64,000 bases of DNA from Agathobaculum sp. Marseille-P7918 (lineage in GTDB: Bacteria; Bacillota; Clostridia; Oscillospirales; Butyricicoccaceae): positions 124,001 to 188,000 of the forward strand of contig NZ_UYYD01000001.1 in assembly GCF_900625105.1 (NCBI RefSeq), in the 5' to 3' direction. Shown here piece after piece: positions 6,436-64,000 of this stretch (positions are counted from its first letter, which is position 1; the number at the start of each line of letters is the position of its first letter). The notes below the pieces were generated by a model. That model saw nothing but the letters and a program-made list of their open reading frames with translations, was not told the DNA's origin and did no database searches. A program made the position numbers and the translations under genes.

Positions 6436-6466
6436 AAAAAGCGGGGCGTTGACGCCCCGCTTTTTT
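6436..6466 (-). terminator. Terminator after the aldo/keto reductase gene (bidirectional)
   Basis: AAAAAGCGGGGCG / CGCCCCGCTTTTTT with a TTGA loop. The stem abuts the reductase stop codon and has T-runs on both strands. Confidence 0.85.
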
Positions 6467-7305
6467 CATGAATCCGCTTTGGGATAGTCCGGATGCAGAC
6501 CGGACCAGCCGAATTGCGGCAGAGTGAGAATGCGATCCATATCCTCATCCGAGATGCAGAAGTCGAAAACATCCAGATTTGCGGCCATCCGTTCCGGGGA
6601 AGAGGATTTTGGCAGCGGAAGCACGCCGCATTGCAGCGCGAACCGGACGCAAAGCTGTGCGACCGATTTGTGGTAGTTTGCCGCGATCTCAGCCAGACGC
6701 GCATCCTGCAGAACGCGCTGGCGGCCGAGTGGACTCCATGCTTCCGGCAAAATATTGTTTTTGCGGCAAAACTCTACCGTGTAGGTTTGCGGGTAACCGG
6801 GATGGAATTCGATCTGATTGACCATAGGCATGATGTCCGCGCTTTCCATCAGGTTTCTCAGATGATGCGGCAGGAAATTGCTCACGCCGATGGCGCGGAC
6901 GCGTCCGGCGCGGTAAAGATCTTCGAGCGCACGCCAGGTATCGTGGTCCAGCTGCCGCCATTCGGCGGACAGATCATCCGTGCGGGGCCAATGGATCAGA
7001 TACAGATCCAGATAGTCGGTATGAAGCTTTTGCAGTGAACGTTCAAATGCCGCCAGCGCGCCATCATATCCCATTTCGGTTTTCCACAGTTTGCTGGTCA
7101 AGAACAGTTCGCTGCGCGGCACATGGGAGGATTGGAGCGCGTCGCCGAGCGCCTGCTCCGTGCCGTAGAAGGAGGCGGTATCAAAATGCCGGTATCCGGC
7201 CTCAAGCGCAGCTGCCACAGTTCCGTCGTCCCGCTCGCTGGTGAGATAGGTGCCGAAGCCGACGGCCGGGATGACAACGCCATTTATTAAAGTAAAGTTG
7301 TCCAT
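6466..7305 (-). CDS. Aldo/keto reductase
   Basis: About 279 residues and NADPH-dependent by family. The sequence shows the (beta/alpha)8 landmarks: GFGTY near the N terminus, HFDTASFYGTE with the catalytic Asp and Tyr, TSKLW with the catalytic Lys, LIHWPR with the catalytic His, IGVSNF and NQIEFHP. The physiological substrate cannot be read from sequence; small aldehydes or 2,5-diketogluconate-type compounds are typical. I chose ATG at 7305 because AAGGA lies 10 bases upstream. It is a single gene with its own promoter and terminator, divergent from the spore-coat pair. Confidence 0.92.
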   Translation of the reverse strand: MDNFTLINGVVIPAVGFGTYLTSERDDGTVAAALEAGYRHFDTASFYGTEQALGDALQSSHVPRSELFLTSKLWKTEMGYDGALAAFERSLQKLHTDYLDLYLIHWPRTDDLSAEWRQLDHDTWRALEDLYRAGRVRAIGVSNFLPHHLRNLMESADIMPMVNQIEFHPGYPQTYTVEFCRKNNILPEAWSPLGRQRVLQDARLAEIAANYHKSVAQLCVRFALQCGVLPLPKSSSPERMAANLDVFDFCISDEDMDRILTLPQFGWSGLHPDYPKADS

Positions 7306-7338
7306 GCGGATCACATCCTTGTCTGTTTGGTATTCTCA

Positions 7339-7347
7339 GTATACCAT
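7339..7347 (-). promoter_or_regulatory. Extended -10 promoter for the reductase gene
   Basis: On the minus strand the sequence reads TGGTATACT, an extended -10 element, about 34 bases ahead of the start codon. No good -35 box is present, as expected for extended -10 promoters. Confidence 0.5.
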
Positions 7348-7386
7348 GATCCCGTGTTCTTTGCATGAGGAATTGCTGGTACTTCT

Positions 7387-7414
7387 CATATTTTCTTTTG
7401 GGTGGACATATCGT
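7387..7414 (+). promoter_or_regulatory. Candidate sigma-E (sporulation) promoter for sipL-spoIVA
   Basis: CATATT (7387-7392) and CATATCGT (7407-7414) are 14 bases apart, close to the mother-cell sigma-E consensus (ATATT and CATAnnnT with 13-15 bases). The two genes downstream are expected mother-cell genes, which supports the reading. No good sigma-A promoter is seen here on the plus strand. Confidence 0.55.
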
Positions 7415-7451
7415 TATACAGGAGCGCAGCGAAAAGGAGGAGACAGCATCA

Positions 7452-8927: not shown

Positions 8928-8941
8928 AAGGCGGGGGAATC

Positions 8942-10417
8942 TTGGATCATCAAATTTACAATCAGATCAGCGCGCGCACCGGCGGCGATATCTATATCGG
9001 TGTGGTGGGACCGGTGCGCACCGGTAAGTCAACGTTTATCAAGCGGTTTATGGAAACCATGGTGCTGCCCGGCATGGATAACGTGTATAAGCGGGAGCGG
9101 GCGCGCGATGAACTGCCGCAATCGGGCGCGGGCAAGACCATCATGACGGCGGAACCCAAATTCGTGCCGGAGGAAGCAGCGGAGATCGCCCTGCCGGACG
9201 GCGGTATGTGCCGCGTGCGTTTGGTGGATTGCGTTGGTTATCTGGTGGATGGTGCATTGGGCGGCATGGAGGACGATATGCCGCGCATGGTTTCCACGCC
9301 ATGGCGCGAAGAGCCGATGACTCTGGCTGAAGCGGCGGAAACGGGTACACACAAAGTCATCGGCGAGCATTCCACAATCGGCCTTGTGGTGACGACCGAC
9401 GGCAGCTTCACAGAGATCCCGCGGGAAAACTATGTTCCGGCGGAACAGCGCGTGATCGAAGAACTGCGGGCGTTGGGCAAACCGTTTTTGGTGTTGGTCA
9501 ATTCCGCGGAACCGGATGGAGAGCGCGCCAAGGCGGTGTGCGAGACGCTACGCACCCAGTATCAGATCGAACCGCTTGCCGTCAACTGCATGGAACTGGA
9601 TGAAAACGACATTGCGTTCATCATGCAGCGGGTTCTGTATGAGTTTCCAGTGTGTGAAATTGCCTTCGTTTTGCCACGGTACATCAGCGCCTTGCCGGCG
9701 CAGCATGCAGTCCGTCAAAGCATTTTCCAATCCGTTCGCACTTCGGCGCAGGGCGGAGAAAAAATGCGGGACATCCGCAGTATCTGCGAGAAGATCGGAC
9801 AAAACGAATATGTCGGGCGCGTGGATATCGATCAGATGGCGTTGGGTAACGGAAAGGCCAGTATCCGGATCGAAATTCCGGAACGGGTGTTTTACGAGAT
9901 CGTCGGCGATCAGACCAATATTCGTGTGCAGGACGCGGCAGATCTGATCTCTGTGCTCAGCGATTTCGCAGAGGTGAAAAAGAAATATGAACGGCTGCGC
10001 GGTGCGCTGGATCAGGTTTATCAGACCGGTTATGGCATTGTCATGCCGTCGGTGGATGAACTGACGCTGGAAGCGCCGGAAATTGTCCGACAGGGCGGCC
10101 GGTACGGTGTTCGCTTGCGTGCGTCGGCGCCGTCCATTCATCTCATGCGTGCCAACATCAAGGCAGAGGTCAATCCGATCGTAGGCACGGAAAAGCAGTC
10201 GGAGGAGCTGGTGCATTATCTGCTTAGCGAATTTGAGGAGCAGCCGGAAAAGATTTGGGATACAAATATTTTCGGCAAATCCCTCAATGAGCTGGTGCGG
10301 GAAGAGCTGTCTCACAAACTCAGCCGCATGCCGGATGATGCGCGGGGTAAAATCCGGGAAACACTGGAAAAAATCATCAACGAAAGCGCGGGCGGACTGA
10401 TCTGCATCATTCTTTGA
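8942..10417 (+). CDS. spoIVA: Stage IV sporulation protein A, coat-basement ATPase
   Basis: SpoIVA is the ATPase that polymerises on the forespore outer membrane to form the base of the spore coat. From TTG 8942 the product is 491 residues, the family's usual length (492 in Bacillus subtilis). The N terminus RTGGDIYIGVVGPVRTGKST contains the Walker A box (residues 23-31), with LVDCVGY as the Walker B-like element. The C-terminal end (SAGGLICIIL) is the hydrophobic tail used for membrane targeting. TTG is preferred over ATG 8924 because AAAGGCGGGG lies upstream of it while the ATG lacks a Shine-Dalgarno and would overlap sipL. The gene follows sipL by 14 bases and is closed by a strong terminator. 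Confidence 0.97.
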   Translation: MDHQIYNQISARTGGDIYIGVVGPVRTGKSTFIKRFMETMVLPGMDNVYKRERARDELPQSGAGKTIMTAEPKFVPEEAAEIALPDGGMCRVRLVDCVGYLVDGALGGMEDDMPRMVSTPWREEPMTLAEAAETGTHKVIGEHSTIGLVVTTDGSFTEIPRENYVPAEQRVIEELRALGKPFLVLVNSAEPDGERAKAVCETLRTQYQIEPLAVNCMELDENDIAFIMQRVLYEFPVCEIAFVLPRYISALPAQHAVRQSIFQSVRTSAQGGEKMRDIRSICEKIGQNEYVGRVDIDQMALGNGKASIRIEIPERVFYEIVGDQTNIRVQDAADLISVLSDFAEVKKKYERLRGALDQVYQTGYGIVMPSVDELTLEAPEIVRQGGRYGVRLRASAPSIHLMRANIKAEVNPIVGTEKQSEELVHYLLSEFEEQPEKIWDTNIFGKSLNELVREELSHKLSRMPDDARGKIRETLEKIINESAGGLICIIL

Positions 10418-47854: not shown

Positions 47855-50137
47855 TCAGGAGGCAGTGATCACGCGGATCTTACCGCCGTTCTCCGCAGTT
47901 TTATTGGCATAAACCCGGAAGGAAGTGTAATTGGACTTGGCGCTTTGCAGTGAAATAAATTCGCCTTGCGCCGGGATATAGACGCCGATATTGCTTGCCA
48001 AAGCGTAATAGCCATCCTTGGTTTTGACACCGGACGAGCCGTCAAACGCCGTTACATCGACGGTATCCACAAGGGTCAGTTTCTGCGTAGAAAGCGAAGT
48101 ATTGACAATATCCTTGTTGGTAGAATATCCCTTCGGAATACCAACAGGCGTTCCGTTCAAAGTGCTTGTCAGCACAGGAACGCGATATTTTACTTCTGTT
48201 TCTGCTGAACCGGACCAGTATTTCAGCTTGATGAAATACGTTTTGTCGGAATCGCTGGACTCATCGCCAATGGTTTCACCATTGGCAATGCCGTATACCC
48301 AACTTTCGCCGGTCACATCGCCAAGCACAATATCCGTTACCGTACCTGCGGTGTCAGTCACCGTATAGCGGATCTGCTGCGACGGCACCGTGCTGAGCGC
48401 GATGTCCGAAGCATTGATGGCGCAAAGCGGTGCACCGGACAGTACCTCCTCATATACTCGCACCTTCGGCGATACCACGCGATCACCGAGCTTGTTTTCC
48501 GCAATGTTCCAACTGCCGGATACCTTGCCGGACAAGGTGCGCTTTGTGAGGTATATACTGCCGTTGGTGGACTGGCCAACCGTTACCACGCGGCCCAGCA
48601 TGCTGGTCAGTTCATCCGCTTGGACGGAAATGTCCCGCAGCGTCAGTCCGTTAAACAGCGCGATCGTTGCCGAGGAATTCTCCTTGATATCGGTGACAAT
48701 ACCCTGCATATCTGCGTTGATTGCACTCTTGGGATATGCAGCTGCAACATTTCCATCCGCATCGAACAAGAGCGTGATGAAATCTTTGAGCTTGATATCC
48801 TTAAAGGTCGCGGCTGCACTATCTGAAATGGTGAAATTCTTACCAAACAGTGTGATCGTCTGCGGATAGCTAAAGGTCGGCGTACCGCTTTGATATTGGC
48901 CGCTCAGCTTTGCATCCGAAACAAGCGCCTGCTTGTTTGCAGCGTCCAGTGTTACCACGTCATACTTTTTCAGCTTGGTGCGATCGACAACCGTACCGTT
49001 CTTTATGATCTGATACTCTTCCGGAATGTTGATGGAAGTCGAAACACCATAAACGAACGTTCTTCCGGAGGAGGTGGAAATACGCGGCAGTACGGCCATC
49101 AGTTCCATCGTGCCATATTCGTTATAATAGCACGTCAGGGTATCGCCGGGCTGAATGCTCGACCACATTTCCGCAAAGGTGCCCAGTTTTCTGCCTTCGC
49201 TGGAAACATACAGGTTGGCATTCCGATCCGGGCGCAGCATCTGGGTATCCGTCTGGATCCCATCGGCAGTAACAGCACGCACCGTATACGTTTCAACCTT
49301 ATTGTTGTTGGGCACCACACCGAGTGCAACCTTGTCGCCTTCCTTGCCGATCACAATGGTGCCATAAACACCGATCAGGCTCTTGTCCAGCGTACCGGCT
49401 GTCTTGCGCGGTGTTTCGGTAACCGAACCGCCTTCATAGAAAATCGCTTCATCGACGCCCAATTCGCTGTCAGTATCGCAGGTTTCGAGCAGAATGCTGT
49501 CCTTAATGGTGGCAGAAGCCACACGGTCCAGCAGCAGGCCGCCCTCATTGCCCTTGAGCGGCGTACCGAGCGTGTTGAGCAACATGGTTGCGGCATCCGA
49601 GCGCTTGACAACGGATTTGGCATCCGTCAGCGACACATTGCGGGTCAAGCCAAGGGACTGTGCTTTTGCGACATAGTCCGCAGGCCAGAAAGGACCGACA
49701 TCCGCTTCGGAATAGCCGAGCATGCGCAGCAGCATCGTACAGACCTCACCGAAGTTTACCGTTTTATCCGGGCCAAACGTGCCATCGGCATAGCCACGGA
49801 TAATCGCCTGTTCCTTCAGGTCCGGATGACGGACCGCAGCGTTGATGTATTGTGCCGCCCAGTGGGTGTTTTTCACATCGGGGAAAATGGTGTAGCTGCC
49901 ATAGGCACTGACATCAGAGAAGCCCAAAGCGGTCACCGCCAGTTTGCAGAACTGCGCGCGTGTCAACGAGCTGTTCGGATCGAAACGGTTGTTGCCCATG
50001 CCCTGCATAATGCCAAGTGCATCCAGAACGGAAGCCGTCTGTGCCAATCTGGTATCCGAGATATCAGAAAAAGCAGCAGAGGCGGAAGATAAGACAAACA
50101 ATAGAGATAATAATATGCTGATAAATCGCTTTTTCAC
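47855..50137 (-). CDS. S-layer homology (SLH) domain exported protein
   Basis: 760 residues with a signal peptide (KKRFISILLSLLFVLSSASAAFS) and three N-terminal SLH repeats (about 25-75, 85-145, 150-195; GMGNNRFDPNSSLTRAQF, IRGYADGTFGPDKTVN). SLH domains bind pyruvylated wall polymers. The remaining 560 residues are beta-rich and Thr/Ser/Asp-rich, of unknown function, with several similar segments (VTADGIQTD, VVTLDAANKQALVSD, LGDVTGESWVYGIANGE). Starts at GTG with GAGGTGA 6-7 bases upstream. Only 16 bases separate it from the upstream permease gene, so it is the last gene of the efflux operon. Confidence 0.85.
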   Translation of the reverse strand: MKKRFISILLSLLFVLSSASAAFSDISDTRLAQTASVLDALGIMQGMGNNRFDPNSSLTRAQFCKLAVTALGFSDVSAYGSYTIFPDVKNTHWAAQYINAAVRHPDLKEQAIIRGYADGTFGPDKTVNFGEVCTMLLRMLGYSEADVGPFWPADYVAKAQSLGLTRNVSLTDAKSVVKRSDAATMLLNTLGTPLKGNEGGLLLDRVASATIKDSILLETCDTDSELGVDEAIFYEGGSVTETPRKTAGTLDKSLIGVYGTIVIGKEGDKVALGVVPNNNKVETYTVRAVTADGIQTDTQMLRPDRNANLYVSSEGRKLGTFAEMWSSIQPGDTLTCYYNEYGTMELMAVLPRISTSSGRTFVYGVSTSINIPEEYQIIKNGTVVDRTKLKKYDVVTLDAANKQALVSDAKLSGQYQSGTPTFSYPQTITLFGKNFTISDSAAATFKDIKLKDFITLLFDADGNVAAAYPKSAINADMQGIVTDIKENSSATIALFNGLTLRDISVQADELTSMLGRVVTVGQSTNGSIYLTKRTLSGKVSGSWNIAENKLGDRVVSPKVRVYEEVLSGAPLCAINASDIALSTVPSQQIRYTVTDTAGTVTDIVLGDVTGESWVYGIANGETIGDESSDSDKTYFIKLKYWSGSAETEVKYRVPVLTSTLNGTPVGIPKGYSTNKDIVNTSLSTQKLTLVDTVDVTAFDGSSGVKTKDGYYALASNIGVYIPAQGEFISLQSAKSNYTSFRVYANKTAENGGKIRVITAS

Positions 50138-50153: not shown

Positions 50154-51404
50154 TTATTGCGTGCGCAGCGCGTCAACCGGCTGCAAATTGGAGGCCTTAT
50201 TGGCAGGATAAAGGCCGAAAATAATACCAATCAATGCAGAGAACAGGAAAGCACCAATGATCAGGCCGAAGGACGGCAAAACCGTAAACTGTTCAATGGT
50301 CGGCATATAGCTGTTCTGCATTTGCGGCACCAAAAGTATATTGCCAAGGATCGCGGACAAGAAGCAGCCGAGTATAATTCCGATGATGCCGCCAAAACAC
50401 GATACAACTGCCGCTTCGATCAGAAATTGGCTGATGATATCGCGCTTTCGAGCGCCGATTGCCATACGGATACCAATTTCCCGTGTGCGTTGCGTGACGG
50501 ACACCAACATAATATTCATAATTCCGATGCCGCCAACCAGCAAGGAAATGCCGGCAATGCCGCCACCGATCATGGCATACATGTTGGCCGATGCTTCGGA
50601 TTGCTCCTGCCACTGGCTGTTGGAATAAGCACTGAAATATCCGCCGTTGGATTCGCATCGACTCTGCATAAAATCAGGCAGCAGCTTATCCGTCAACTCT
50701 GGGATATCCTCTTTCGTGGCGGCCTTGATGACATATTGTTTATCCGACATGCCACTTATGCTCATCATGCTGTTTTGCAGCGTATAAGGGAATACGATCA
50801 ATTGGTCCTCGGTATTTAATTTACCGTCATATTTGCCGGTATACACACCGACGACTTCAAAACTCTTGCCGCCGATGCGCAGTTTCTGTCCCAGCGGACT
50901 CATCGCACCGAAAAAGTACTTTTTCAGGGTTTCACCAATGACACAGACGCGTGCGCGGGTATTACAGTCCTCCTTGGACAGGTCGCGGCCAATCGAAATC
51001 GTTCGGCTGGTCACTTCTCCATAATCCTGATTGCCGAAATACATATAGGTATAACCGTTGTCATTGGTCAGTTTCTTGGTGCGATATTGGATGCCGTCAC
51101 TCTGCCAGTCATAATACTGGCTCTGCGGCGACCAGGCGGCAATTTTATCCGCAAGTTCGGTGTCCAGGTATTCTTCAAAATCCTGCCAGTCCTTGCTCTT
51201 GGCTCCATATCCGTATACATCAATACGATTGAGGCCCATCGCTTCATATTGCAGGCGCTGCAGCTTGGTACCGCCTTGGATGTATGAGACGATGGCGATA
51301 ACCGAAGCTACGCCGATGATAATGCCAAGCATGGTCAAAATCGATCGCACTTTATTATCCATAATGGATTTCAAAGCCATGCGCATGCTTTGCAGCCAGT
51401 TCAT
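50154..51404 (-). CDS. MacB-type ABC transporter permease
   Basis: 416 residues: N-terminal helix with NKVRSILTMLGIIIGVASVIAI, a large extracytoplasmic MacB core domain (about 45-280), then three helices with GGIGIMNIMLVSVTQRTREIGIRMAIGARKRDI and the closing LYPANKASNLQPVDALR. Such mechanotransmission permeases export peptides, lipoproteins or drugs together with an adaptor. Overlaps the ATPase stop by 4 bases. Confidence 0.94.
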   Translation of the reverse strand: MNWLQSMRMALKSIMDNKVRSILTMLGIIIGVASVIAIVSYIQGGTKLQRLQYEAMGLNRIDVYGYGAKSKDWQDFEEYLDTELADKIAAWSPQSQYYDWQSDGIQYRTKKLTNDNGYTYMYFGNQDYGEVTSRTISIGRDLSKEDCNTRARVCVIGETLKKYFFGAMSPLGQKLRIGGKSFEVVGVYTGKYDGKLNTEDQLIVFPYTLQNSMMSISGMSDKQYVIKAATKEDIPELTDKLLPDFMQSRCESNGGYFSAYSNSQWQEQSEASANMYAMIGGGIAGISLLVGGIGIMNIMLVSVTQRTREIGIRMAIGARKRDIISQFLIEAAVVSCFGGIIGIILGCFLSAILGNILLVPQMQNSYMPTIEQFTVLPSFGLIIGAFLFSALIGIIFGLYPANKASNLQPVDALRTQ

Positions 51405-52159
51405 GCTTCCAATCCTCCTTTCGCGGGAGCATCGGAAATAATATGTCCATCCTGAATGGTCACAATCCGCTTTGCCATTTGAGCAAGATGATTATCATGA
51501 GTGATCAGGATGATGGATGTTCCCTGCTCGTTCAATGTCGTCAGCTGCCGCATGATTTCCAAACCGGACGCGGAATCCAGATTGCCGGTAGGCTCATCTG
51601 CCATGATGATCGGCGGTTTTGCCGCGACGGCGCGTGCAATCGCAACACGCTGCTGCTGGCCACCCGACATCTCGCCCGGACGATGGTCCATGCGCTTTTC
51701 CAGTCCAACCGAAGTCAGTGCGTCGATTGCCAACTGCCTGCGCTCTTCCCTGCCCATACCGCGATAAATCAGCGGCAACTCGACATTTTCCAGCGCGGTC
51801 AGCGCGGGGATCAGATTGAACCCCTGAAAGATAAATCCAATTTCACGATTTCGGATACCGGACAAGACGGACGGCTTCATATCGCTGACTGCCTGTCCGT
51901 TCAGGTAATACGTTCCATAAGTCGGGATATCCAGGCAGCCGAGAATATTCATCAGTGTGGATTTGCCGGAACCGGATTGTCCCAAAATGCAGAGAAACTC
52001 TCCCCAATGGACCGCCAGTGAAATGTTATCCAAAGCACGGACTTCATTTTCCCGGCCTTCATTATAGATTTTACTCATTTGCTGAACATCAATCAGCAGA
52101 TCGGTTGCGGCCGTTTCCACATCGGCCTGCACCGACTGAGGCGCTTTTTTCCAGAACAT
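51401..52159 (-). CDS. MacB/LolD-type ABC ATPase
   Basis: 252 residues. Walker [10 protein letters not shown] near residue 60, the LolD-type [16 protein letters not shown] segment, signature [14 protein letters not shown] and Walker [14 protein letters not shown]. It has an N-terminal extension of about 20 residues. All catalytic residues are intact. Acts with the permease and adaptor of the same operon. Confidence 0.95.
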
Positions 52160-52170
52160 TGCGCCCCTCC

Positions 52171-54135
52171 TTATCCAACCGCCATCACGCCGGAATCGCC
52201 ACCCATATCCGCATACAGATCCTGCGGTCCTGCAAGGAATACGGTTGTTCCTTCATCAATACCCCAGAGGATTTCCGTGTTGGTGGAATCCGCAATGCCA
52301 ATTTCAACCGGCACCAGAACAAAACCTTCCGGGATATCCTCGGTTCCTTCTGGAATCGGCAGCGTTTCAGTAAAGGGAATTTCCTCGCCATTTTCATCGA
52401 TCAGCGGTTTTGCAAATACAGCTGTGCCGCTGTCCGTATTGACGATTGCGCGGGACGGAACCATCAGACAATCCATCGAAGACGCGGTTGTGATTTGATA
52501 TTCCACCATCATACCGCTGTAAATGGACTGTCCTTCGATCGGATCGATGGAAATAACAGCGCGGAACGTGGGCATGCTGCCCTGTCCGCCGCTGCTGTCT
52601 TGCGAGGGCTCCAGCGCCACCGAGTCCACCGTTCCGGTAAGCGAGAGCTGCGAACCATCATAAGTATACATACTCATGGTGGCAGGCTGGCCGGGCTGCA
52701 CGGCTCCGACATCCGTGGACAGAATGTCTGCATTAACTACGATATCATTCAGGTCGGCCACAACAACCAGCGCGTCCGTTCCAGTGACTTCCTGATCCGG
52801 GACCGCATTCAGACTGACGACTACGCCGTCAATCGTGGATTCCACCGTGGAATTTGCAATCAATTTTTTTAGTTCTGTGATGCGCTCCTGCTTATCCTTG
52901 ACCAGATTTTGCGCTGTCGTGACGCCGTTGCGCGCCGTTGTCACGCCGTTCTGCGCATTTTTCACTTCATCCTGTGCCGCATCGCTCGACAGACGCATAA
53001 TCGTTGCACCACTATTATAATTATAATAGTCGATGCCATTGAGGGACGTGATTTCACCGCTGATCTGTGCGGTGACTGCTTCCTCACGGTTATATTCCAG
53101 CGTGCCGGACTCCGCCGGATAAACGGTGCCTGCACTGCTCGTGGAGATCGTTGCTGTCGCCGTCATACCCTTGGTCAGCGTACCCGGGTTCTTCATGGAA
53201 ATTACAACGCGAAATACTTTGACACCCTCAGCCGAGATCTTTTCTGTCTTTTCCACCGAAGAAACCGAGCCCGAGATCTCGCTCATTGCCGACGGGATCG
53301 AAACGGTTGCCGACTGGCCGCTCTTGATATTATTGATGTAAGCGGAACTGAAATACAGCGAAAGGTTCATCTTGCTGTCATCGACCATGTAACCGATAAC
53401 TTCGCCTTCGCTGATCTGCTGACCTACGCGATAGGACGTGGAATTGCCATCCGAATCCGTGGAAGGAATGATCTTGCCGGTAAACGGTGCGGTAACATTC
53501 AGCTTATTCAGCTTTTTCTGTGCAGTGCTCAATGTATTCTGCGCCTGCGTTACTTCAGCCTGCGCATCGGTAACGGAACGCTGCGCATCCGCCAATTCGT
53601 TTTGCGCGGTTTCCAGTTCCTTGCGCGTTTCAGTGGGATTGACAACGACAAGCTTGTCTCCCTTCTTGACCTCGTCACCAACCTCTACCAAAACATCGGT
53701 GACCTTACCCTTTAAATCCCGGCCAAGCTCTTCCCGCTTTTTGGCCGCGGTCACGCCGCTGCCTTCAATATAGGTTTCCAACATGCCGCGAGATGCGACA
53801 GCCGTTGTTTCGCCCTGCAGTTCGGTTCCCGTGTTGCGGGTTTTGAAAACCAGGAAGATTCCGGCGGCGATCAGCAAAACGATGACCGCAATGCCGATGC
53901 CGATACGCACGCCTTTGCTCAGACGGCTTTTCTTCTTATTCATCTTATCTGCATACTTGTTGCGTTTGGGGAGCGCGTTTTTATCCCCTTCCGCTTTGGC
54001 CGGTTCCGCGGCGGCTGCGGCAGTGGTAGTCTTTGCAGCCGTGGATGCAGCTACTGCAACCTTGCTGCCTGCTTTGGCGACATGTGCGCCGCCCTTGGAA
54101 GCGGTTTGCGGCTTCTGCTTGTTTTCTTCACTCAT
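52171..54135 (-). CDS. Two-module HlyD/MacA-like membrane adaptor
   Basis: 654 residues, clearly longer than the usual 350-450. Residues 1-75 are an Ala/Lys-rich cytoplasmic tail, followed by a membrane helix (77-97). Then two successive adaptor modules: the first (about 110-340) with a coiled hairpin at 167-212 flanked by LKGKVTDVLVEVGDEVKKGD and VTAPFTGKI; the second (about 345-545) with AQISGEITSLNG, a coil at 385-427 and VESTIDGVVVSLNA. A MacA-like beta-barrel/MP domain ends the protein. It should link the permease to the wall or outside. AAAGGAA precedes the start. First gene of the operon. Confidence 0.87.
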   Translation of the reverse strand: MSEENKQKPQTASKGGAHVAKAGSKVAVAASTAAKTTTAAAAAEPAKAEGDKNALPKRNKYADKMNKKKSRLSKGVRIGIGIAVIVLLIAAGIFLVFKTRNTGTELQGETTAVASRGMLETYIEGSGVTAAKKREELGRDLKGKVTDVLVEVGDEVKKGDKLVVVNPTETRKELETAQNELADAQRSVTDAQAEVTQAQNTLSTAQKKLNKLNVTAPFTGKIIPSTDSDGNSTSYRVGQQISEGEVIGYMVDDSKMNLSLYFSSAYINNIKSGQSATVSIPSAMSEISGSVSSVEKTEKISAEGVKVFRVVISMKNPGTLTKGMTATATISTSSAGTVYPAESGTLEYNREEAVTAQISGEITSLNGIDYYNYNSGATIMRLSSDAAQDEVKNAQNGVTTARNGVTTAQNLVKDKQERITELKKLIANSTVESTIDGVVVSLNAVPDQEVTGTDALVVVADLNDIVVNADILSTDVGAVQPGQPATMSMYTYDGSQLSLTGTVDSVALEPSQDSSGGQGSMPTFRAVISIDPIEGQSIYSGMMVEYQITTASSMDCLMVPSRAIVNTDSGTAVFAKPLIDENGEEIPFTETLPIPEGTEDIPEGFVLVPVEIGIADSTNTEILWGIDEGTTVFLAGPQDLYADMGGDSGVMAVG

Positions 54136-54863: not shown

Positions 54864-55775
54864 TTACTTTTCGGTTTTGGGGTCGGTAATGACTTCTTTG
54901 AACGAAGTCGCAAGGCCGGCAAGGCTCTGGATCTCGCTCGGGATGATGATTTTGGTGGATTTACCATCCGCTGCTGCGCTGAACGCTTCGAGGGATTTGA
55001 GTTTGATGACCTGTTCGGTCGGTGCCGCTTGGTTGAGCATGGCAATCGAATCGGCCAGTGCTTTTTGCACTGTCAGCAGTGCTTCAGCTTCGCCTTCCGC
55101 TTCCTTGATCTTTGCCAGGCGATTTGCTTCCGCAGCCAGAACAGTGGCTTCCTTTTCGCCTTCTGCCACCAGAATCGCGGATTGCTTTTTGCCTTCCGCC
55201 ACCAGAATGGATTCGCGGCGTTCGCGCTCTGCCTTCATCTGCTTCTCCATGGATTCCTGGATTGCAGCCGGCGGGATGATGTTCTTCAGCTCCACGCGAT
55301 TAACCTTAATGCCCCAAGCGTCGGTTGCTTCGTCCAGAATCGAACGCATCTTGGTGTTGATGATATCGCGGCTGGTCAGCGTCTGATCCAGTTCCAAGTC
55401 GCCGATGATATTACGGAGTGTGGTTGCTGTCAAGTTTTCGATCGCAGCCATCGGGCTCTCAATACCATAGGTGAACAGCTTGGGATCGGTGATCTGGAAA
55501 TATACGACTGTGTCGATCTGCATCGTAACATTATCCTTCGTGATAACCGGCTGGGGCGGGAAATCCACAACCTGCTCTTTGAGGGTCACTCTGCGTGCCA
55601 CGCGCTCAAACAGCGGCACTTTAATATGCAGACCGGTGTTCCAAGTGCACTTGTATGTGCCCAGTCGTTCCACAATATAGGCTTTTGCCTGCGGAACAAT
55701 AACGATGTTGCTTGCCAGAAAAGCAATCAGCAGGATGGCTAAAACGATCCAAAGTCCATAAATCAAAAACGGCAT
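54864..55775 (-). CDS. SPFH/Band 7 membrane protein (QmcA-like)
   Basis: 303 residues. N-terminal membrane helix (about 5-27), SPFH domain (AYIVERLGTYKCTWNTGLH, FPPQPVITKDNVTMQIDTVVYFQI) and a long coiled region with LVAEG repeats (about 195-240). Members oligomerise into membrane rings, often with an NfeD partner, as here. ATG is preceded by AAAGGAG. Confidence 0.95.
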   Translation of the reverse strand: MPFLIYGLWIVLAILLIAFLASNIVIVPQAKAYIVERLGTYKCTWNTGLHIKVPLFERVARRVTLKEQVVDFPPQPVITKDNVTMQIDTVVYFQITDPKLFTYGIESPMAAIENLTATTLRNIIGDLELDQTLTSRDIINTKMRSILDEATDAWGIKVNRVELKNIIPPAAIQESMEKQMKAERERRESILVAEGKKQSAILVAEGEKEATVLAAEANRLAKIKEAEGEAEALLTVQKALADSIAMLNQAAPTEQVIKLKSLEAFSAAADGKSTKIIIPSEIQSLAGLATSFKEVITDPKTEK

Positions 55776-55800
55776 ACTGTTCTCCTTTACTCCTCAAAAA

Positions 55801-56244
55801 TTATCCAACCTTTTGCACCACGGCTTTGACGCCGCGGATTGCAACAACCTTGACTGTCGTGCCTTCCGGGATAACAGAATCATCCTCGCTGCGGGCGGTC
55901 CAAATAGATCCCATAATCTTGACCGCGCCGGTTTCATGCACATTATCAATCTGCTCCGTAACCACTGCGATCTCACCGATGATACGATCTGCATTGGTGG
56001 GTTCATTTTTTGTTTTCAGAAATTTGCGGCAGAACGGACGAACCAGTGCAAGCAGCGCCGCGGAAAACAGGACGAAAATCGTCAGCTGCGCAGAGATCTC
56101 CAACGAAAGGCTTGCGGCGATCAAGGCGGCAACACCACCGACTGCAAACCAAATGGCACACAGATCCAGAGTGAATGCCTCAACTGCTACACATATAATG
56201 ATGACACCCATCCAGATATAAAGGGTGTTGATTCCAAACAGCAT
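55801..56244 (-). CDS. NfeD-family membrane protein
   Basis: 147 residues with three membrane helices (about 8-28, 32-50, 52-72) and a C-terminal OB-fold (IIGEIAVVTEQID, GAVKIMGSIWTAR, VKVVAIRGVKAVV). This short NfeD form without the protease domain pairs with SPFH proteins to organise membrane domains. ATG 56244 lies after AAAGGAGGG. Upstream of the SPFH gene by 25 bases; the two form an operon. Confidence 0.93.
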   Translation of the reverse strand: MLFGINTLYIWMGVIIICVAVEAFTLDLCAIWFAVGGVAALIAASLSLEISAQLTIFVLFSAALLALVRPFCRKFLKTKNEPTNADRIIGEIAVVTEQIDNVHETGAVKIMGSIWTARSEDDSVIPEGTTVKVVAIRGVKAVVQKVG

Positions 56245-56268
56245 CTTGCAGATCCCTCCTTTGGCAAC

Positions 56269-56297
56269 AGTATAGCATGCAGGTGTGAAAATGTACA
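56269..56297 (-). promoter_or_regulatory. Promoter of the nfeD-SPFH pair
   Basis: On the minus strand TGTACA (56292-56297), 17 bases, TATACT (56269-56274), the latter with an extended TGC. Confidence 0.65.
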
Positions 56298-56337
56298 GTA
56301 AAACCATAGTAACAATCAGCGGTGGGAATGCATCAAT

Positions 56338-57771
56338 TCATTCGTTGATATAATGCAGCCTCTGCAGAAATTCCTTGTTCTGTGTTTTCTCACAAATTGC
56401 ATCAATGCCGGAGGATATGACCCAGATCGCCATGCCCCGTCTGGCGCAAGTCACAAGCATATCGATGATCATTTCATGGTGTGCCGACTCCTGCCCGGCA
56501 AACGGGAAAAAGCAGATCAGCAGCCGTGGATTGATCAAATACCATTTATAATAGGAAAACCGTAACCGCTCCGGTAAGGTCCATTCGCATAAGGGACGCA
56601 ATAACGCTTCCCGCGTGAACCACCCGGAGGCTTCCTGCAAAATATTTTCCATGATTTTCTTTCGGACGATATGCCGTCCGGCTTTGGGAAGCAGGCAGGT
56701 GCTGAGATTGTCTAATGCGGTCAATTTGTCAAACAAGACACCGCTTGGACGATCCGGGCGTTCAATTTGAATCCCGATATCCGTACCTATGATTTTTGAC
56801 AGTTCACTGTGCTCATATTTTTTCCCATCCAAACGAAATTCCCCGCTCAACCAGCTTTTTTCCCGCAAAAAACAATCCCGGATCTGTGATACGGTATTGT
56901 AATTCTCATCCCGCAGGAACGCGATCTCACCGCTGCGGATCTGAAAATTCATCGGTTTTAACGTAGGGAAAGTCAGATTGGCAACTGACAGGATAACTTT
57001 TTCATCATCACGAGGCTCCGAACGCACCGCGCTGTTGCTGCTTCGGCGTTTCCACCCCAATATTTCATACAGCCGGTCATCGTATTCTTCCGGATACAGC
57101 CGATAGAACGATTTCCGGTTTTTGATGATATCCACCCGGTTTGCATACTGATACAGAAATTCCTCATTCATATCGCAAACCAACACTGCAGAGCCCTGCT
57201 TGAGCAAATACTGGACGCATTGCATCAGCTGTTTCAGATCTCTCCAACGAAGGATTTCTGTCAAACGATCCAGAATCAGCAGCTCACTCTTCCAAAACCA
57301 AACACGAAAGACCGAAAGGCGATAATAATCCAACAGAGAAAGCGCGGAAAGCTTCTGTTCCCATGACAAAAACAACCCCATCTGCTGCATCATGTCTGCG
57401 GTTGCTTTTGCATGAAGTTCTTCTTCCGCAGCCTTGTTTTTTCTCCACCGAGTGGGTTTTCCCAAAGACATGACAAAATCCCATACGGTCAGTTCCTTGG
57501 AATCGAAGCGGAATTTGTCGGCGATCATGCTGCGCTGCGTGATCCAACGCTCCAAATCAATGGAACCAGCACGGCGGCCATACAGGAATACTTTGCCGCT
57601 TCTCATATGGGAATATCCTTTGAAAATGTCCAGGAAAGCCGTACCGGAAGTAAGGTGATCATCAACGTATATGCCAATACATTCCCCGCGTGAGATAGCA
57701 ATATCAAATTGATAGTCGCTGCCTTCACGCTGGAAATGGCCATTCTCAACGCGGATCAGTTCCTCTTTCAT
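56338..57771 (-). CDS. Degenerate sugar-type ABC ATPase paralogue (no catalytic motifs)
   Basis: 477 residues with the two-domain layout of a ribose-type sugar ATPase, but neither domain can hydrolyse ATP by the known mechanism. At the NBD1 Walker A position it reads VDDHLTSGT (36-44) and at Walker B LLILDRLTE (164-172). In NBD2 Walker A is RDENYNTVS (287-295), the signature is TLPERL (399-403 region) and Walker B LLICFFPFAG (417-426) in place of DEPTRG. Flanking residues still align with the active ATPase at 62322-63815: YYKWYLINPRLLI against AKWLLNDPDIII, and the stretches around NRVDIIKN. The frame is intact and has a good GGAGG/GAGG site, so it is not a pseudogene. It is 7 bases after the histidine kinase gene, so probably translated with it. 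A signalling or inhibitory role is inferred. Confidence 0.85.
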   Translation of the reverse strand: MKEELIRVENGHFQREGSDYQFDIAISRGECIGIYVDDHLTSGTAFLDIFKGYSHMRSGKVFLYGRRAGSIDLERWITQRSMIADKFRFDSKELTVWDFVMSLGKPTRWRKNKAAEEELHAKATADMMQQMGLFLSWEQKLSALSLLDYYRLSVFRVWFWKSELLILDRLTEILRWRDLKQLMQCVQYLLKQGSAVLVCDMNEEFLYQYANRVDIIKNRKSFYRLYPEEYDDRLYEILGWKRRSSNSAVRSEPRDDEKVILSVANLTFPTLKPMNFQIRSGEIAFLRDENYNTVSQIRDCFLREKSWLSGEFRLDGKKYEHSELSKIIGTDIGIQIERPDRPSGVLFDKLTALDNLSTCLLPKAGRHIVRKKIMENILQEASGWFTREALLRPLCEWTLPERLRFSYYKWYLINPRLLICFFPFAGQESAHHEMIIDMLVTCARRGMAIWVISSGIDAICEKTQNKEFLQRLHYINE

Positions 57772-57778: not shown

Positions 57779-58597
57779 TCAGTCCTCCTGCGAAAGCAGC
57801 GGCAATGTGATACAGCACTCTGTGCCGATGCCTGCAGCACTGTAAATGCGCAGGCCGTAATCCTCTCCGAACATCAAACGGATACGACTGTTGACATTTC
57901 GCAGCGCGATACCGCCTCGCTGTTGTCCGCTTACGGTTGTGCTGTCCCCCGCGAATTGTGCATTTAATCGCTCGACCTGTTCTTCCGGCATACCGATTCC
58001 ATCATCCCGTACACGCAGAAACAAAGTTTGTTCACTGTTTTCTACGATGATCCGCACGGTACCATGTTCGATTTTTCCTTCCAGGCCATGCGAAACCGCA
58101 TTTTCAACAAGCGGCTGCAAAATGAGCTTGGGCATACGCGCTTCCAGCAGCTCTTCGTTTTCCATTTCAAGCTCGAGAGAAAGCTTATCGCCAAAACGAC
58201 AGCGCTGAATGGTGAAATAATTTTCTGCATTATCCAGTTCATCAGAAAAGGTGACATATTCCTGCACATTGGAAATGGTATAACGAAAAAAAGTGGCCAA
58301 TGCCTCTGTGGTTTCTGCAATTTCTTCGCAGTCTGCTAAAAGGGCATCCGCGCGGATCGCTTCCAATGCATTATACAGAAAATGCGGATTGATTTGGTTT
58401 TGCAGGGCGAGATATTCCGCCTGCTTTTGCTGTAGCTTCGTGATTTCTTCGCCATGCAGCCGGTCTTCGATGTCGCCCAGAAACACATTCAGATCGGGGC
58501 TTTTGCTCCAATCCATATGTAATACGGCTTCCAGGTTTTTATCATTGCGATAACGCCGCAACGCACGCCAAAGTTTCCATCCACCTCTCAGCGACAT
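57779..58597 (-). CDS. Soluble YesM/LytS-type histidine kinase
   Basis: 272 residues. H-box NQINPHFLYNALEAIR with His72, N-box LVENAVSHGLEGK, G-box VRDDGIGMP and GGIALRNVNSRI identify a His_kinase/HATPase pair of the YesM type. Unlike typical YesM proteins it has no membrane helix and no extracellular sensor; the first 50 residues are a short helical region only. Input must therefore come from another protein. RBS AAGGTGAG. 9 bases after the response regulator. Confidence 0.93.
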   Translation of the reverse strand: MSLRGGWKLWRALRRYRNDKNLEAVLHMDWSKSPDLNVFLGDIEDRLHGEEITKLQQKQAEYLALQNQINPHFLYNALEAIRADALLADCEEIAETTEALATFFRYTISNVQEYVTFSDELDNAENYFTIQRCRFGDKLSLELEMENEELLEARMPKLILQPLVENAVSHGLEGKIEHGTVRIIVENSEQTLFLRVRDDGIGMPEEQVERLNAQFAGDSTTVSGQQRGGIALRNVNSRIRLMFGEDYGLRIYSAAGIGTECCITLPLLSQED

Positions 58598-60190: not shown

Positions 60191-60222
60191 AATCCACCCC
60201 CGGTAAAATACGGATCCTATGA

Positions 60223-60254
60223 GAAAAGGGAAAACGAATTCGTTTTCCCTTTTC
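60223..60254 (-). terminator. Terminator between sugar importer and regulators
   Basis: GAAAAGGGAAAACG / CGTTTTCCCTTTTC, 14-bp perfect palindrome with AATT loop, T-rich tail on the minus strand. It should reduce transcription into the regulator genes; no strong new promoter is seen after it. Confidence 0.8.
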
Positions 60255-60317
60255 CATATTCATCATAACACGTTCGCTGGCATTTGCCAAATGGAAATCA
60301 TGCGCATACGAATTATC

Positions 60318-61289
60318 TTATTCGTAATCTGCAACGTTGGATGCATCGATCCAAGTGTTGTCCGTAATGATAACATTCTCATCCAGCGTGCCGCCGCCAA
60401 GCAGCGTAACCGCAGCTTCGATGGCATTTGCCGCCATTGCGCCGCCGTTCTGAGAAACCGTACCGGTGATGCGGCCGTCATTGATCGCTTCAAAGCCGTC
60501 CGGCGTGCCGTCAACACCCGTGATAATAATACCGCTGTTCGCGCCTGCTGCATTACCGGCGCCAACCGCCATGCCGTCGTTCTCGCAGATGATCGCATCC
60601 AGATCATATGCGGACAGCCAGCTCTCAACCGTTGCCTGTGCGCTTGCAGTATCCCACTGGCAGTCTGCCGGTGCAACCACCTGAACCATGTCCGGATAGT
60701 TCTTCAGGACATTCTCATAGCCTTCCATGCGCTGCAGTCCGCCGGAGTCGCCGGAGGGGCCGGTCAAGATTGCGATGTTGCCCTTACCATTCAGCAGGTC
60801 CGCAACATGCTGCATTTCGGTTTCGCCAGCCTTGACGTTATCGCCGTAAGAAACTGCCGAGATACCGTAGTTTTCCCAATCGGTGCATGCAGAAATGATA
60901 TTGATGACCACGACGCCCGCATCCGCCGCGCTCTTAGCCGCATCACACAGGCCGTCCGGATCAACAGGCTCGAACAGGATTGCGTCATACCCCTCAGAGA
61001 CACACTGCTCGATCTGGCTGATCTGCGTTGCAGCGTCCTGATCTGCGCTCAGGATCGTCAGGTCAACGCCCATTTCCTCTGCCTTTGCCTCAGCCGCTTC
61101 GGATACTGCGATCTGAAATGCGTTGGTCTGATGCTGCTGGATCAGTGCGATCTTATAAGCACCATCGGTCGAATCTGTACTCGCGTCGGAATTCTGCGAG
61201 TCGTCGGTTGCGGTGTTGCCGCAGCCGGTTGCCATACCAAGCGTCATTGCGCCGGCCATTAACATGGCAAGAAGTCTCTTTTTGCTCAT
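60318..61289 (-). CDS. Sugar-binding lipoprotein of ABC importer
   Basis: 323 residues. Signal peptide and lipobox MATGC (Cys23), then a Ser/Thr/Asp-rich linker and a ribose/galactose-binding type 1 fold (KIALIQQHQTNAFQIAVSEAAEAKA, AILFEPVD, ENDGMAVGAG, GVDGTPDGFEAI). The ligand is probably a monosaccharide or similar. GAGGAGG lies 7 bases before ATG. Made after an intercistronic hairpin, as is common for high-level binding proteins. Confidence 0.94.
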   Translation of the reverse strand: MSKKRLLAMLMAGAMTLGMATGCGNTATDDSQNSDASTDSTDGAYKIALIQQHQTNAFQIAVSEAAEAKAEEMGVDLTILSADQDAATQISQIEQCVSEGYDAILFEPVDPDGLCDAAKSAADAGVVVINIISACTDWENYGISAVSYGDNVKAGETEMQHVADLLNGKGNIAILTGPSGDSGGLQRMEGYENVLKNYPDMVQVVAPADCQWDTASAQATVESWLSAYDLDAIICENDGMAVGAGNAAGANSGIIITGVDGTPDGFEAINDGRITGTVSQNGGAMAANAIEAAVTLLGGGTLDENVIITDNTWIDASNVADYE

Positions 61290-61358: not shown

Positions 61359-62306
61359 TCAGTTTTTCTTGCTTTTTCCCTTGACATCGATCAAAACGGC
61401 CAAAACGATGATGACGCCCTTGACAATCTTCTGCCAGTGAGACGAAACGCCCATGATGTCCAAGCCGTTTGCAATCACCGTAATCAACAGACAGCCGATC
61501 ACAACGCCCCACGGCTTGCCGACGCCGCCCGACATGGATACGCCGCCAACCACGCATGCCGTAATGGCATCCATTTCATAGCTTTCGGCTGCAGTCGGCT
61601 GACCGATGGTGACACGCGAAGTCATCAGAAAACCGCTTAAACCCGCCAGCAGGCCTGCGATCGCAAATGTGGAAATGCGAATCAAGGTCGTATTGATACC
61701 GGAAACACGCGCAGCCTGCAAATTACCACCGCAGGCATAGACGCGGCGGCCGTAAACTGTTTTGGCCAAAATAAAAGAGCAGATAAGAATGACTATCACA
61801 AGGAAAACTGCCAGCATCGGAATGCCTGCAATCGAGCTTGCTGCAACAGCCTTGTATTCCGCGCTGATACCGGTGATCGGTTTGCCGTTGGAAGTCAGGA
61901 GCGCCAAGCCGCGCACTGCGGTCATGGTACCAAGCGTCATAATAAACGGAGGCAAATCTCCTACTGCAACGCCAACGCCATTGACAACTCCGACAGCCAA
62001 ACCCGCCAGCATGGCGACAACAAGCGGAACGATCAGCGGATACTGCCCCTGCCCCAGCATAGCAGCCAAAATGCCGGCAAATGCGACAGTGGAACCGACC
62101 GACATATCAAAACCGCCGGCAATGATGACAAACATCATGCCAAAGGCCAAAATACCGTTGATAGAAGCTTGCTTCAAGATGTTGACCAAGTTGCCTGGCT
62201 GAATGAAACTGGGCTTTAAGCACGTCAACACAATGACCAGCACAATAAAGATTACAAAGATAAAGTATTCGCTGATCAGCGCTTTTGCATTTTTCGTCTT
62301 TTTCAT
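61359..62306 (-). CDS. Ribose-type ABC importer permease
   Basis: 315 residues with about ten membrane helices. The BPD_transp_2 (RbsC) family is clear: GGFDMSVGSTVAFAG, PPFIMTLGTMTAVRGLALL, and GVSMSGGVGKPWGVVIG. Acts as homodimer with the following ATPase. Start is ATG 15 bases after the ATPase stop. Confidence 0.95.
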   Translation of the reverse strand: MKKTKNAKALISEYFIFVIFIVLVIVLTCLKPSFIQPGNLVNILKQASINGILAFGMMFVIIAGGFDMSVGSTVAFAGILAAMLGQGQYPLIVPLVVAMLAGLAVGVVNGVGVAVGDLPPFIMTLGTMTAVRGLALLTSNGKPITGISAEYKAVAASSIAGIPMLAVFLVIVILICSFILAKTVYGRRVYACGGNLQAARVSGINTTLIRISTFAIAGLLAGLSGFLMTSRVTIGQPTAAESYEMDAITACVVGGVSMSGGVGKPWGVVIGCLLITVIANGLDIMGVSSHWQKIVKGVIIVLAVLIDVKGKSKKN

Positions 62307-62321: not shown

Positions 62322-63815
62322 TTATACCTCGATGGCAGAGGCAAGCGTCATAATCCGCTCCTGAGAGAACTCTTCTCGCGTGACCTCACCCGAAAAATTG
62401 CCTTCGCACATTACCATGATCCGGTCACAAACACCCATCAGTTCCGGAATTTCCGAAGAAATCATGATAACCGCCTTGCCCTGCTGTACCAGACTGCCCA
62501 GCAGCAAGTAAATATCGCGCTTTGCACCGACGTCAATGCCGCGAGTGGGTTCATCCAAAATGATGATATCCGGATCATTCAGCAGCCACTTTGCAATAAC
62601 CACTTTCTGCTGATTGCCGCCGGACAAATTCCCGACAATCTGATCTCCGGAAGGAGTTTTGATATTCAGCTTTTCGATATACTCTTGTGATGCGCTGCGC
62701 GCTTTGTTTTTGTTATACAAGCCGTTGGTGACCAGTTTTTGGATGGCTACCATTGCAATGTTGTCATTGACCGAACCGCTCAGATTCAGACCGGTTACCT
62801 TGCGATCCTCGGTAATCAGTGCGACGCCTTCCTTGATGATATCGCGCGGCGAATGCACATGGACCTTTTTGCCCTTCACAATAATTTCTCCGCCGGACAA
62901 TTCATGCATCCCGAAGATACCTTCTACCAATTCACTGCGTCCTGCGCCGACCAGACCGCCAATGCCAAGAATTTCGCCCTTGCGAACAGAAAGGCTGACG
63001 CCCTTGACTTTATTGTCCGCACGAACGATGTCCTTCGCTTCAAAAATCACTTCGCCGATCTTGGCTTCCAGCTTGGGAAATACATCCGTGATTTCACGAC
63101 CGACCATCATTTTGATCAATTGTGCTTCATTCAGATCTTTTGTCTCACCGGAACCAATGTATTGGCCGTCCCGATATACACTGACACGGTCACAAATGGA
63201 GAAAATTTCATCCATACGATGCGATATGTAAATGATCGCAACGCCCTTTTCCTTCAATCTGCGAATATGACCAAACAGAAGCTCAACTTCGCGCTCGGTA
63301 ATGGCCGCTGTCGGCTCATCCATAATGATAACCTTTGCGTTGATCGAAATCGCCTTGATGATCTCGATTAACTGGCATTGTGCAACCGTCAGGTTGCGAA
63401 GCCGTTCTTTGGGAGAAACATGCAGACCACATTCTTCAATCAGACGCTGCGCTTCTTCGATTTCCGCCTTGTTATCTACCAAGCCATGCTTGCGCAGCTC
63501 CCGGCCTACAAAGATGTTTTCAAACACGGTCATATCCAGAATCGGATTCAGCTCCTGATGGATCATTGCAACACCATGATCCATGGCCTCCTTTGGATTG
63601 GCTACTTTATAAGGCTGTCCGTTGAAAAGGATCTCGCCGCCTTCGTCCTTTGTGTAAATACCCATCAGGATTTTCATCAATGTGGACTTGCCGGCGCCGT
63701 TCTCGCCCATCAATGCATGCACTTCTCCAGGCTTCACCTGCAATTGCACATGATCCAGCGCTTTGACACCCGGGAAGGTCTTGCTGATATCCTTCATTTC
63801 CAGTATATATTCCAT
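62322..63815 (-). CDS. Ribose-type sugar ABC ATPase (two NBDs)
   Basis: 497 residues with two intact nucleotide-binding domains. NBD1: GENGAGKST, signature LTVAQCQLIE, IIMDEPTAAI. NBD2: GLVGAGRSE (the altered P-loop usual in this family), LSGGNQQKVVIAKW and IILDEPTRGID. ATG 63815 has GAGGAGG 9 bases upstream. First gene of the importer operon and the apparent parent of the degenerate paralogue at 56338-57771. Confidence 0.96.
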   Translation of the reverse strand: MEYILEMKDISKTFPGVKALDHVQLQVKPGEVHALMGENGAGKSTLMKILMGIYTKDEGGEILFNGQPYKVANPKEAMDHGVAMIHQELNPILDMTVFENIFVGRELRKHGLVDNKAEIEEAQRLIEECGLHVSPKERLRNLTVAQCQLIEIIKAISINAKVIIMDEPTAAITEREVELLFGHIRRLKEKGVAIIYISHRMDEIFSICDRVSVYRDGQYIGSGETKDLNEAQLIKMMVGREITDVFPKLEAKIGEVIFEAKDIVRADNKVKGVSLSVRKGEILGIGGLVGAGRSELVEGIFGMHELSGGEIIVKGKKVHVHSPRDIIKEGVALITEDRKVTGLNLSGSVNDNIAMVAIQKLVTNGLYNKNKARSASQEYIEKLNIKTPSGDQIVGNLSGGNQQKVVIAKWLLNDPDIIILDEPTRGIDVGAKRDIYLLLGSLVQQGKAVIMISSEIPELMGVCDRIMVMCEGNFSGEVTREEFSQERIMTLASAIEV

Positions 63816-64000
63816 GCTTTCTTCCCTCCTCACTCTTCATTTCTTTGTGATTATTTTATCAAAGCATTTATCTTCGCGAAACTTCTATTTTTCACATGAG
63901 GGGGGAGATTCTTTGGAAATTTCTCAAAAAAGTCAATTTAGAAAAAAATAGAACCAATACTTTGTATGATTTGCATATATTTTACATAAGACGCACAGCA
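63816..64000 (-). promoter_or_regulatory. Upstream region of the sugar importer operon
   Basis: 185 AT-rich bases to the window edge. On the minus strand TTTCGC (weak -35) and TAAAAT are 17 bases apart near 63870; TTTCGCGAAG around 63870-63885 includes a TTCGCGAA palindrome that could be a regulator site. I see no coding sequence and no clear catabolite-repression box. Confidence 0.4.

Follow-up and report, generated by a model that had tools for sequence, protein, structure and literature searches.

The window, by which we mean the whole 64 kb stretch of DNA analysed, encodes a tandem ABC-ATPase fold protein, pABC, that is catalytically dead by its motifs and is closely linked to a soluble histidine kinase (HK) and a response regulator (RR) next to a sugar importer. 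This gene set and its likely target are well supported. We give about an even chance to the idea that RR, HK and pABC form a signalling unit controlling the adjoining RbsABC-type importer, with pABC as a permease adaptor that would pass the state of the permease to the kinase; the docking of these proteins on one another is the part of this model that we infer.

The gene set

The RR-HK-pABC set lies downstream of RbsA-RbsC-RbsB type importer genes, and the features of the locus are as follows.

56338..57771, minus strand: pABC, tandem ABC-ATPase fold protein of 477 aa, catalytically dead by motifs; start ATG at 57771
57779..58597, minus strand: HK, 272-aa histidine kinase with His_kinase and HATPase_c, without predicted transmembrane segment
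58607..60190, minus strand: RR, 527-aa YesN-type response regulator with receiver, weak GGDEF_2 and AraC-type HTH
60200..60262, minus strand: hairpin stretch between SBP and RR, GAAAAGGGAAAACG-AATT-CGTTTTCCCTTTTC, z -5.4
60262..60290, minus strand: putative own promoter of RR, TTGGCA-17-TATGAT
60318..61289, minus strand: SBP, RbsB-like sugar-binding protein, Peripla_BP_4, lipobox by eye
61359..62306, minus strand: PERM, RbsC-like permease, BPD_transp_2
62322..63833, minus strand: RbsA-like importer ATPase with an intact consensus ATP site
63873..63917, minus strand: conserved importer upstream element, TCCAAAGAATCTCCCCCCTCATGTGAAAAATAGAAGTTT

The intergenic spacing is 9 nt between RR and HK and 7 nt between HK and pABC. 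The open reading frame, start, 477-aa length and tight operon spacing of pABC agree with a preliminary description of this DNA, and domains and hydropathy bear out its report of a sensor-less kinase and a YesN-type regulator beside pABC. RR passes as YesN-type on its receiver domain and AraC-type HTH, with GGDEF_2 just under the cut-off. For the importer RbsA, the first start of the open reading frame is GTG at 63833, and ATG at 63815 aligns with the orthologues. By Pfam and NCBIfam the transporter adjoining pABC and HK is an RbsABC-type importer, not a BceAB-type one.

Reading of the open reading frames also picked out three minus-strand genes resembling a MacAB-type ABC exporter (50154-54135; permease at 50154-51404, ATPase at 51401-52159 and a 654-aa adaptor-like protein at 52171-54135). 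An SPFH/stomatin-like and an NfeD-like membrane protein are encoded directly 3' of pABC on the same strand (54864-56307), and a 760-aa protein with an S-layer-homology-like N-terminus lies at 47855-50137.

Homology of pABC to RbsA and loss of motifs

Comparison of pABC with the importer RbsA by BLASTP gave 17% identity and an E-value of 4e-7, so the homology is weak but real. The match to Pfam ABC_tran was below cut-off (E 0.0026, 18.8 against 25), and the best NCBIfam match, YtfR (E 2e-12), was far below it with 46.3 bits against 850. Profile-profile comparison matched pABC to RbsA-type tandem ATPases with 97% probability over 351 columns; with wider relatives added, the match reached 100% over 477 columns (E 7.5e-53). 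A search of PDB sequences returned ABC ATPases in general, and was weak with the tight pABC profile A1. An AlphaFold model made from 13 rows was itself weak (pLDDT 58, pTM 0.38). Foldseek with this model found tandem and single ABC ATPases at low TM-scores on the query (0.25-0.36), which is a rough fold check; an unrelated fold, which the preliminary description had named as evidence against its reading, was not shown by the model.

Neither the P-loop pattern GxxxxGK nor LSGG is found in any of the 13 pABC orthologues, that of the window included, and the intact ATP site (Walker A1, DEPT in B1, LSGGNQQK signature 2) is absent in all 13. In pABC the place of Walker A1 is taken by 'DDHLTSGTA' and that of Walker B1 by 'LILDRLT'; in the second half, A2 reads 'DENYNTVSQ', signature 2 'EWTLPER' and B2 'LICFFPF'. 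Blocks common to the orthologues, such as RLRFSYYKWYL..P.LLICFFPF.GQE..HHEMIIDMLV, replace the catalytic motifs. All 13 retain the first-half Walker B aspartate (LDRLT), with arginine in the position of the catalytic glutamate. The claim that all Walker and signature motifs were lost thus stands for the P-loop, LSGG and DEPT but not for this aspartate.

That description also had pABC losing both Walker A motifs and both signatures relative to the active sugar ATPase. The tandem homology holds, but the local RbsA has one consensus site. Because its second Walker A lacks the lysine (GLVGAGRSE) and its first signature is atypical (LTVAQCQ), the parent RbsA type has one consensus site rather than two, and in the passages of PMC11466899 consulted, one degenerate site is likewise reported for RbsA/NupO of Bacillus subtilis. 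Eighteen positions are common to 16 pABCs and 12 active RbsAs. The catalytic residues are not among them; they are mostly glycines, together with L-V after Q-loop 1 and E..N after Q-loop 2. In ABC importers the neighbourhood following the Q-loop meets the coupling helices of the permease.

Conservation of the locus and selection on pABC

Twelve pABC orthologues were found in named contigs, at 62-88% identity and all equally dead; the contigs are labelled Agathobaculum, Butyricicoccus, Oscillibacter, Dysosmobacter or unnamed bacteria. The order RR-HK-pABC is present in 12/12 of these loci, with RbsA-RbsC-RbsB importer genes within about 3 kb of the set in every case. A conserved order of regulator, soluble kinase and pseudo-ATPase near the importer had been proposed as a check, and missing kinase linkage as evidence against the reading; we looked for both and found order and linkage in 12/12. 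In 9/12 loci the importer is directly upstream on the same strand (the contig of L008 ends within the permease gene, before RbsA; the L004 permease was located by tblastn at 4471-5415). In L009, L010 and L012 it lies 0.3-3 kb off on the opposite side and strand, with up to two genes between. Because the importer has moved in these three and is still near, proximity survived the rearrangement.

Estimates of dN/dS (NG86) were 0.085-0.24 for pABC in the 8 of 12 pairs with usable dS, 0.042-0.16 for HK in 8 pairs and 0.058-0.11 for RbsA in 7 of those pairs. By this measure pABC evolves faster than HK or RbsA. Among 87 genomes of the window's family, pABC is present in 15, and the frame is open in all 15 with a full-length copy. 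An HK orthologue (E below 1e-140) occurs in the same 15 genomes, and a sixteenth HK match, a relative with an E-value of 2e-75, lies in genome G030. These 15 genomes also have the SBP orthologue (81-100% identity), in a scan that scored at most 25 candidates. The low dN/dS and the occurrence in the same 15/87 genomes argue for selection, and on these comparisons we take the loss of motifs to be old and selected, not decay, in keeping with what had been proposed for this gene.

Orthologues with normal Walker motifs would have counted against the preliminary reading, and none with intact motifs was found by the tight profile A1. At E 1e-25 this profile detected pABC in at least 11/394 genomes of the order and at least 1/391 of the class, all inside the window's family; these are lower bounds, with mostly 4 candidates scored per genome.

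Genome G002 has a true relic of a second pABC copy, a C-terminal fragment of about 84 aa (L034, 1291-1761), and an intact copy is present on a different contig of this genome. G763 has an intact but solitary pABC, which does not share a contig with the RR-HK-RbsA-PERM-SBP operon; that operon has no pABC in the usual slot. The neighbours of this orphan, read by eye, are ileS and M42 peptidases, and no element of the importer type was seen by eye upstream of it. In this genome pABC and the operon are unlinked, yet both are kept.

Ancestry and wider relatives

The preliminary description took pABC for a paralogue of the neighbouring importer ATPase, and the tree speaks against this. In a tree of 32 rows, 20 labelled pseudo and 12 active are split by one branch (99/98). 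L109p and L110p were counted as pseudo, L110p despite being nearly intact, and the tree does not include L106p, whose frame is broken, or the partial L108. The window's RbsA has an active RbsA from the same family as its partner and is distant from pABC, which groups with pseudo-ATPases of other families. On this tree, pABC is placed in an older family. Recent duplication of the neighbouring RbsA as the origin of pABC was rejected.

The strict wider profile A3 (E below 1e-85) had matches in at least 13/391 genomes of the class and at least 1/149 of the phylum, the own one; both are lower bounds, the class scan having scored mostly 4 candidates per genome and the phylum scan mostly 10. Wholly dead members occur in f1 and in six other family-level groups of the class (f5, f23, f32, f46, f62, f66). 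The common order in other families is RR - HK - dead RbsA - active RbsA - permease - binding protein, and pABC stands directly before active RbsA-PERM-SBP in L094, L095, L096, L097, L099, L103 (where RR is out of view), L125, L126 and L127. Partly kept intermediates appeared only through the kinase profile, not through profile A1.

Several relatives differ from this order. At L105 it is RR - binding protein - HK - degenerate ABC - permease, the 16 kb fetched contain no further RbsA-like frame, and the set adjoins MFS, SSF and dehydrogenase genes. The ABC protein there has a partial P-loop (GLRHAGKRT) and passes the Pfam ABC_tran cut-off (39.1 against 25); because of this we regard it as degenerate rather than surely dead. 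In its anatomy L105 would resemble a receptor and not a pump, though its ABC protein keeps a partial P-loop. At L104 a second permease follows pABC. L135 (genome G581) has an RR-HK-RbsA-like set without a P-loop, and an active importer on the other side. In L134 (genome G030) an RbsA-like frame follows HK, and an insertion separates RR and HK; the inserted open frames (2502-3531) look by eye like transposase.

Kinase anchors and ATPase motifs

The H-box QNQINPHFLYN is invariant in 13/13 window-group kinases. Hydropathy gave no transmembrane segment in 10/13; the kinases of L006, L008 and L011 each have a single borderline stretch (1.62-1.74), which lies at residue 251 where the ATPase domain ends and is not an anchor. 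The window HK is without an extracellular sensor and without a membrane anchor, and an anchor is present in relatives. By hydropathy, the kinases of L101, L109 and L110 have two transmembrane segments with an extracellular-sized domain between, and partly kept ATPases are beside them. Those of L093-L100, L102-L105, L107 and L108 have one or two transmembrane segments and no room for a sensor.

The motifs of the companion ATPases also form a series. L110p is nearly intact; motifs are partly lost in L109, L101, L102 and L107, mostly lost in L100, L104 and L105 (P-loop-like strings occur in L104 and L105), and the wholly dead end is made up of L093-L099, L103 and the window group. Membrane kinases without a sensor go mostly with degenerate or dead ATPases, and the soluble kinases of the window group with a dead one. 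Judged from the sequences, the two series seem to match roughly. In L106 (genome G027, 5893-7224) the companion keeps an intact Walker A1, its frame breaks in the second half and the kinase is without the NPHF string.

Outside the window's own genus or family, the HK profile matched kinases 343-394 aa long. HK is followed by an RbsA-like frame in 13/15 of these loci (L044 has it on the opposite strand, and in L043 the contig end cuts it). In L047 and L070 the RbsA-like companion is upstream of RR instead, as seen only in larger regions. The kinase frame is shorter than 400 aa in 18/58 HK loci, and for each of these 18 there is an RbsA-like companion that shows no complete catalytic set (the companion frame of L071 is broken); among the remaining 40, 3 have an RbsA-like gene within 1.5 kb flanks. 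This companion scan covered 57/58 loci with 1.5 kb flanks, the own locus L035 being already known. Five further short kinase frames were examined. L105 and L135 have a pseudo companion and L136, L137 and L138 do not; no RbsA-like companion is present at L136 and L138, and only an active importer at L137. In total, 20/23 examined kinase frames under 400 aa, among the matches listed (there are more kinase matches than loci), have an RbsA-like companion with no complete catalytic set seen. The kinases of L136-L138 look by eye like pieces of longer kinases and match the profile more weakly (E 1e-39 to 1e-47). At L137 (genome G611, 6890-9418) a 235-aa kinase frame immediately precedes an active RbsA-type importer, and no pseudo-ATPase is present.

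Upstream element and transcription

The regions upstream of the window-group importer genes have a common block, tCCAAAaAtnnnCCCCCnTcATG.gAAaA, and the element in front of these genes can be written as TCCAAARAATnnnCCCCC. With a weight matrix built with the window site itself included, the window site scored 58.6, the next best site in the 64 kb 7.1 and the shuffled window 7.6. A loose form of the pattern was found in 10/11 window-group members against 2.0 expected and in 11/14 relatives against 2.5 expected, given that the pattern was chosen after viewing the alignment and that the relatives are not independent (pairs from one genus). All 11 relatives with a wholly dead or unlinked pABC have it, and the pattern is absent in L100, L101 and L104. 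Of eleven sources, only the window and L005 fitted a tighter version of the pattern. A search for the importer element in front of RR was negative.

The -35 of RR is TTGGCA in 10/11 aligned loci, an alignment without L004 and L005; L003 differs, and the loci with a relocated importer (L009, L010, L012) keep the hexamer. Over the region as a whole, promoter-like matches number 11 against 10.2 expected by chance. The hairpin between SBP and RR perhaps ends the importer transcript; it was not listed by the terminator scan. Given the separate promoter-like site of RR, the hairpin and the importer element, pABC probably shares a transcript with RR and HK, and the importer is the likely target.

Discussion

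We propose that pABC is an RbsA-derived pseudo-ATPase serving as an adaptor, which would take the place of RbsA on the permease without driving transport. Because pABC has the tandem-NBD layout and keeps the segments following the Q-loops, it could occupy the permease. HK, with no extracellular sensor or membrane anchor of its own, would be held on the permease-pABC complex. Docking of the sugar-loaded binding protein would shift the permease, this would move pABC, and the kinase would be switched; RR would then act at the TCCAAARAATnnnCCCCC element before the importer genes. We infer the position of pABC on the permease, that of HK on pABC, the direction of the signal and the binding of RR to the element. 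An adaptor on the permease is favoured by the kept positions after the Q-loops, by L105 and L104, and by the kinase series. Several points weigh against it. Neighbours in an operon co-occur whether or not they bind, the single-chain model of pABC is poor (pLDDT 58), and pABC evolves faster than HK or RbsA. Short kinase frames without a pseudo companion exist (L136-L138), the L105 companion is degenerate rather than surely dead, and that of L106 has an intact Walker A1. The element pattern is post hoc, is missing from L100, L101 and L104, and by eye does not occur upstream of the orphan pABC of G763. A related reading, which we hold tentatively and consider somewhat less than even, is that dead ABC importers are true receptors, in which binding protein, permease and pseudo-ATPase would signal ligand across the membrane to a sensor-less kinase, in the window group also an anchor-less one. 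L105 would be the pure form, and in the window group one permease would serve both transport and sensing, its RbsA being exchanged for the dead relative. This reading is weakened by the partial P-loop kept at L105.

Other explanations place pABC differently. It might bind HK and dock transiently beside RbsA-RbsC2, with RbsA not replaced, so that the kinase reads importer flux or occupancy as BceS reads BceAB. We consider this unlikely, even though pABC is near an active importer in 12/12 orthologous loci and nine relatives, the related kinases are sensor-less membrane kinases like BceS, and flux sensing is proposed for BceS-BceAB (PMC10314905, in the part consulted); BceS reads an active ATPase with no dead copy involved, and because no other RbsA-like ATPase is in the 16 kb fetched at L105, a neighbouring active ATPase seems unneeded there. 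A cytosolic sensor, with pABC as a soluble protein that binds a ligand (sugar phosphate or nucleotide) or inhibits the kinase and never contacts the permease, fits the want of predicted membrane segments in both window HK and pABC and the first-half Walker B aspartate kept in 13/13. We nevertheless think it decidedly unlikely: the close relatives of HK are membrane proteins, at L105 and L104 the ABC protein comes together with a permease, and the positions after the Q-loops rank among the best conserved.

A place in the operon is by itself no proof of a role in signalling, and pABC might be a structural partner or assembly factor of the permease that shares an operon with RR-HK by chance. This is very improbable, since pABC is closely spaced behind RR-HK, which appear to have a promoter apart from that of the importer, and since its motif loss accompanies loss of the kinase sensor. 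A decaying pseudogene of a former importer ATPase would account for the missing catalytic motifs, and one true relic exists, in G002. We give this next to no credence and reject it on selection, conservation and co-occurrence, the frame being open in 15 family genomes and 12/12 named contigs, with dN/dS well under 1, 62-88% identity and presence in exactly the 15 genomes that have HK and SBP.

Transporters with a second role as sensors are already known. A dead relative of the transporter's own motor as the link to a kinase is without named precedent in the open-licence papers searched, where we found none on a pseudo-ATPase linking importer to kinase, in agreement with the preliminary description, which knew of no named system of this form. 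Related gene sets in other families of the class suggest that an importer part has been turned into a sensor. If the adaptor model is true, it opens a clean route to the question of how extracellular sugar is sensed by a soluble kinase, with an adaptor that could be deleted without loss of transport, and the graded kinase and ATPase series would document in nature how an enzyme turned into a component of signalling. Genes of the pABC type might readily be annotated as sugar ABC ATPases and overlooked.

In its tandem ABC layout, its size, and the RbsC-type permease and RbsB-type binding protein adjoining it, pABC resembles ATPases of the RbsA/MglA/NupO type. RbsA and NupO keep one site with the other degenerate, according to the part of PMC11466899 consulted, whereas pABC keeps none. 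The BceRS-BceAB systems, as treated in portions of PMC10314905 and PMC6978683, are like the window in combining a sensor-less kinase with an ABC transporter that acts as co-sensor and controls its own expression. BceS is membrane-anchored and reads an active ATPase, whereas the window has a soluble kinase, a dead importer ATPase and a YesN-type RR. In PstSCAB-PhoU-PhoR and DctA/DcuS a transporter also takes part in sensing, with PhoU as adaptor (PMC6978683, in the sections consulted). For BceS-BceAB, PstSCAB-PhoU-PhoR and DctA-DcuS, no dead motor copy is described in those parts of PMC10314905 and PMC6978683. The window set is without PhoU, and the proposed adaptor would instead be a dead relative of the transporter's own ATPase. 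The XylFII-LytS system of Clostridia is like the window in that a sugar-binding protein is tied to a kinase and a regulator. The XylFII-LytS kinase contacts the binding protein through an extracellular part. By contrast, the window-group kinase has neither an extracellular part nor a membrane anchor.
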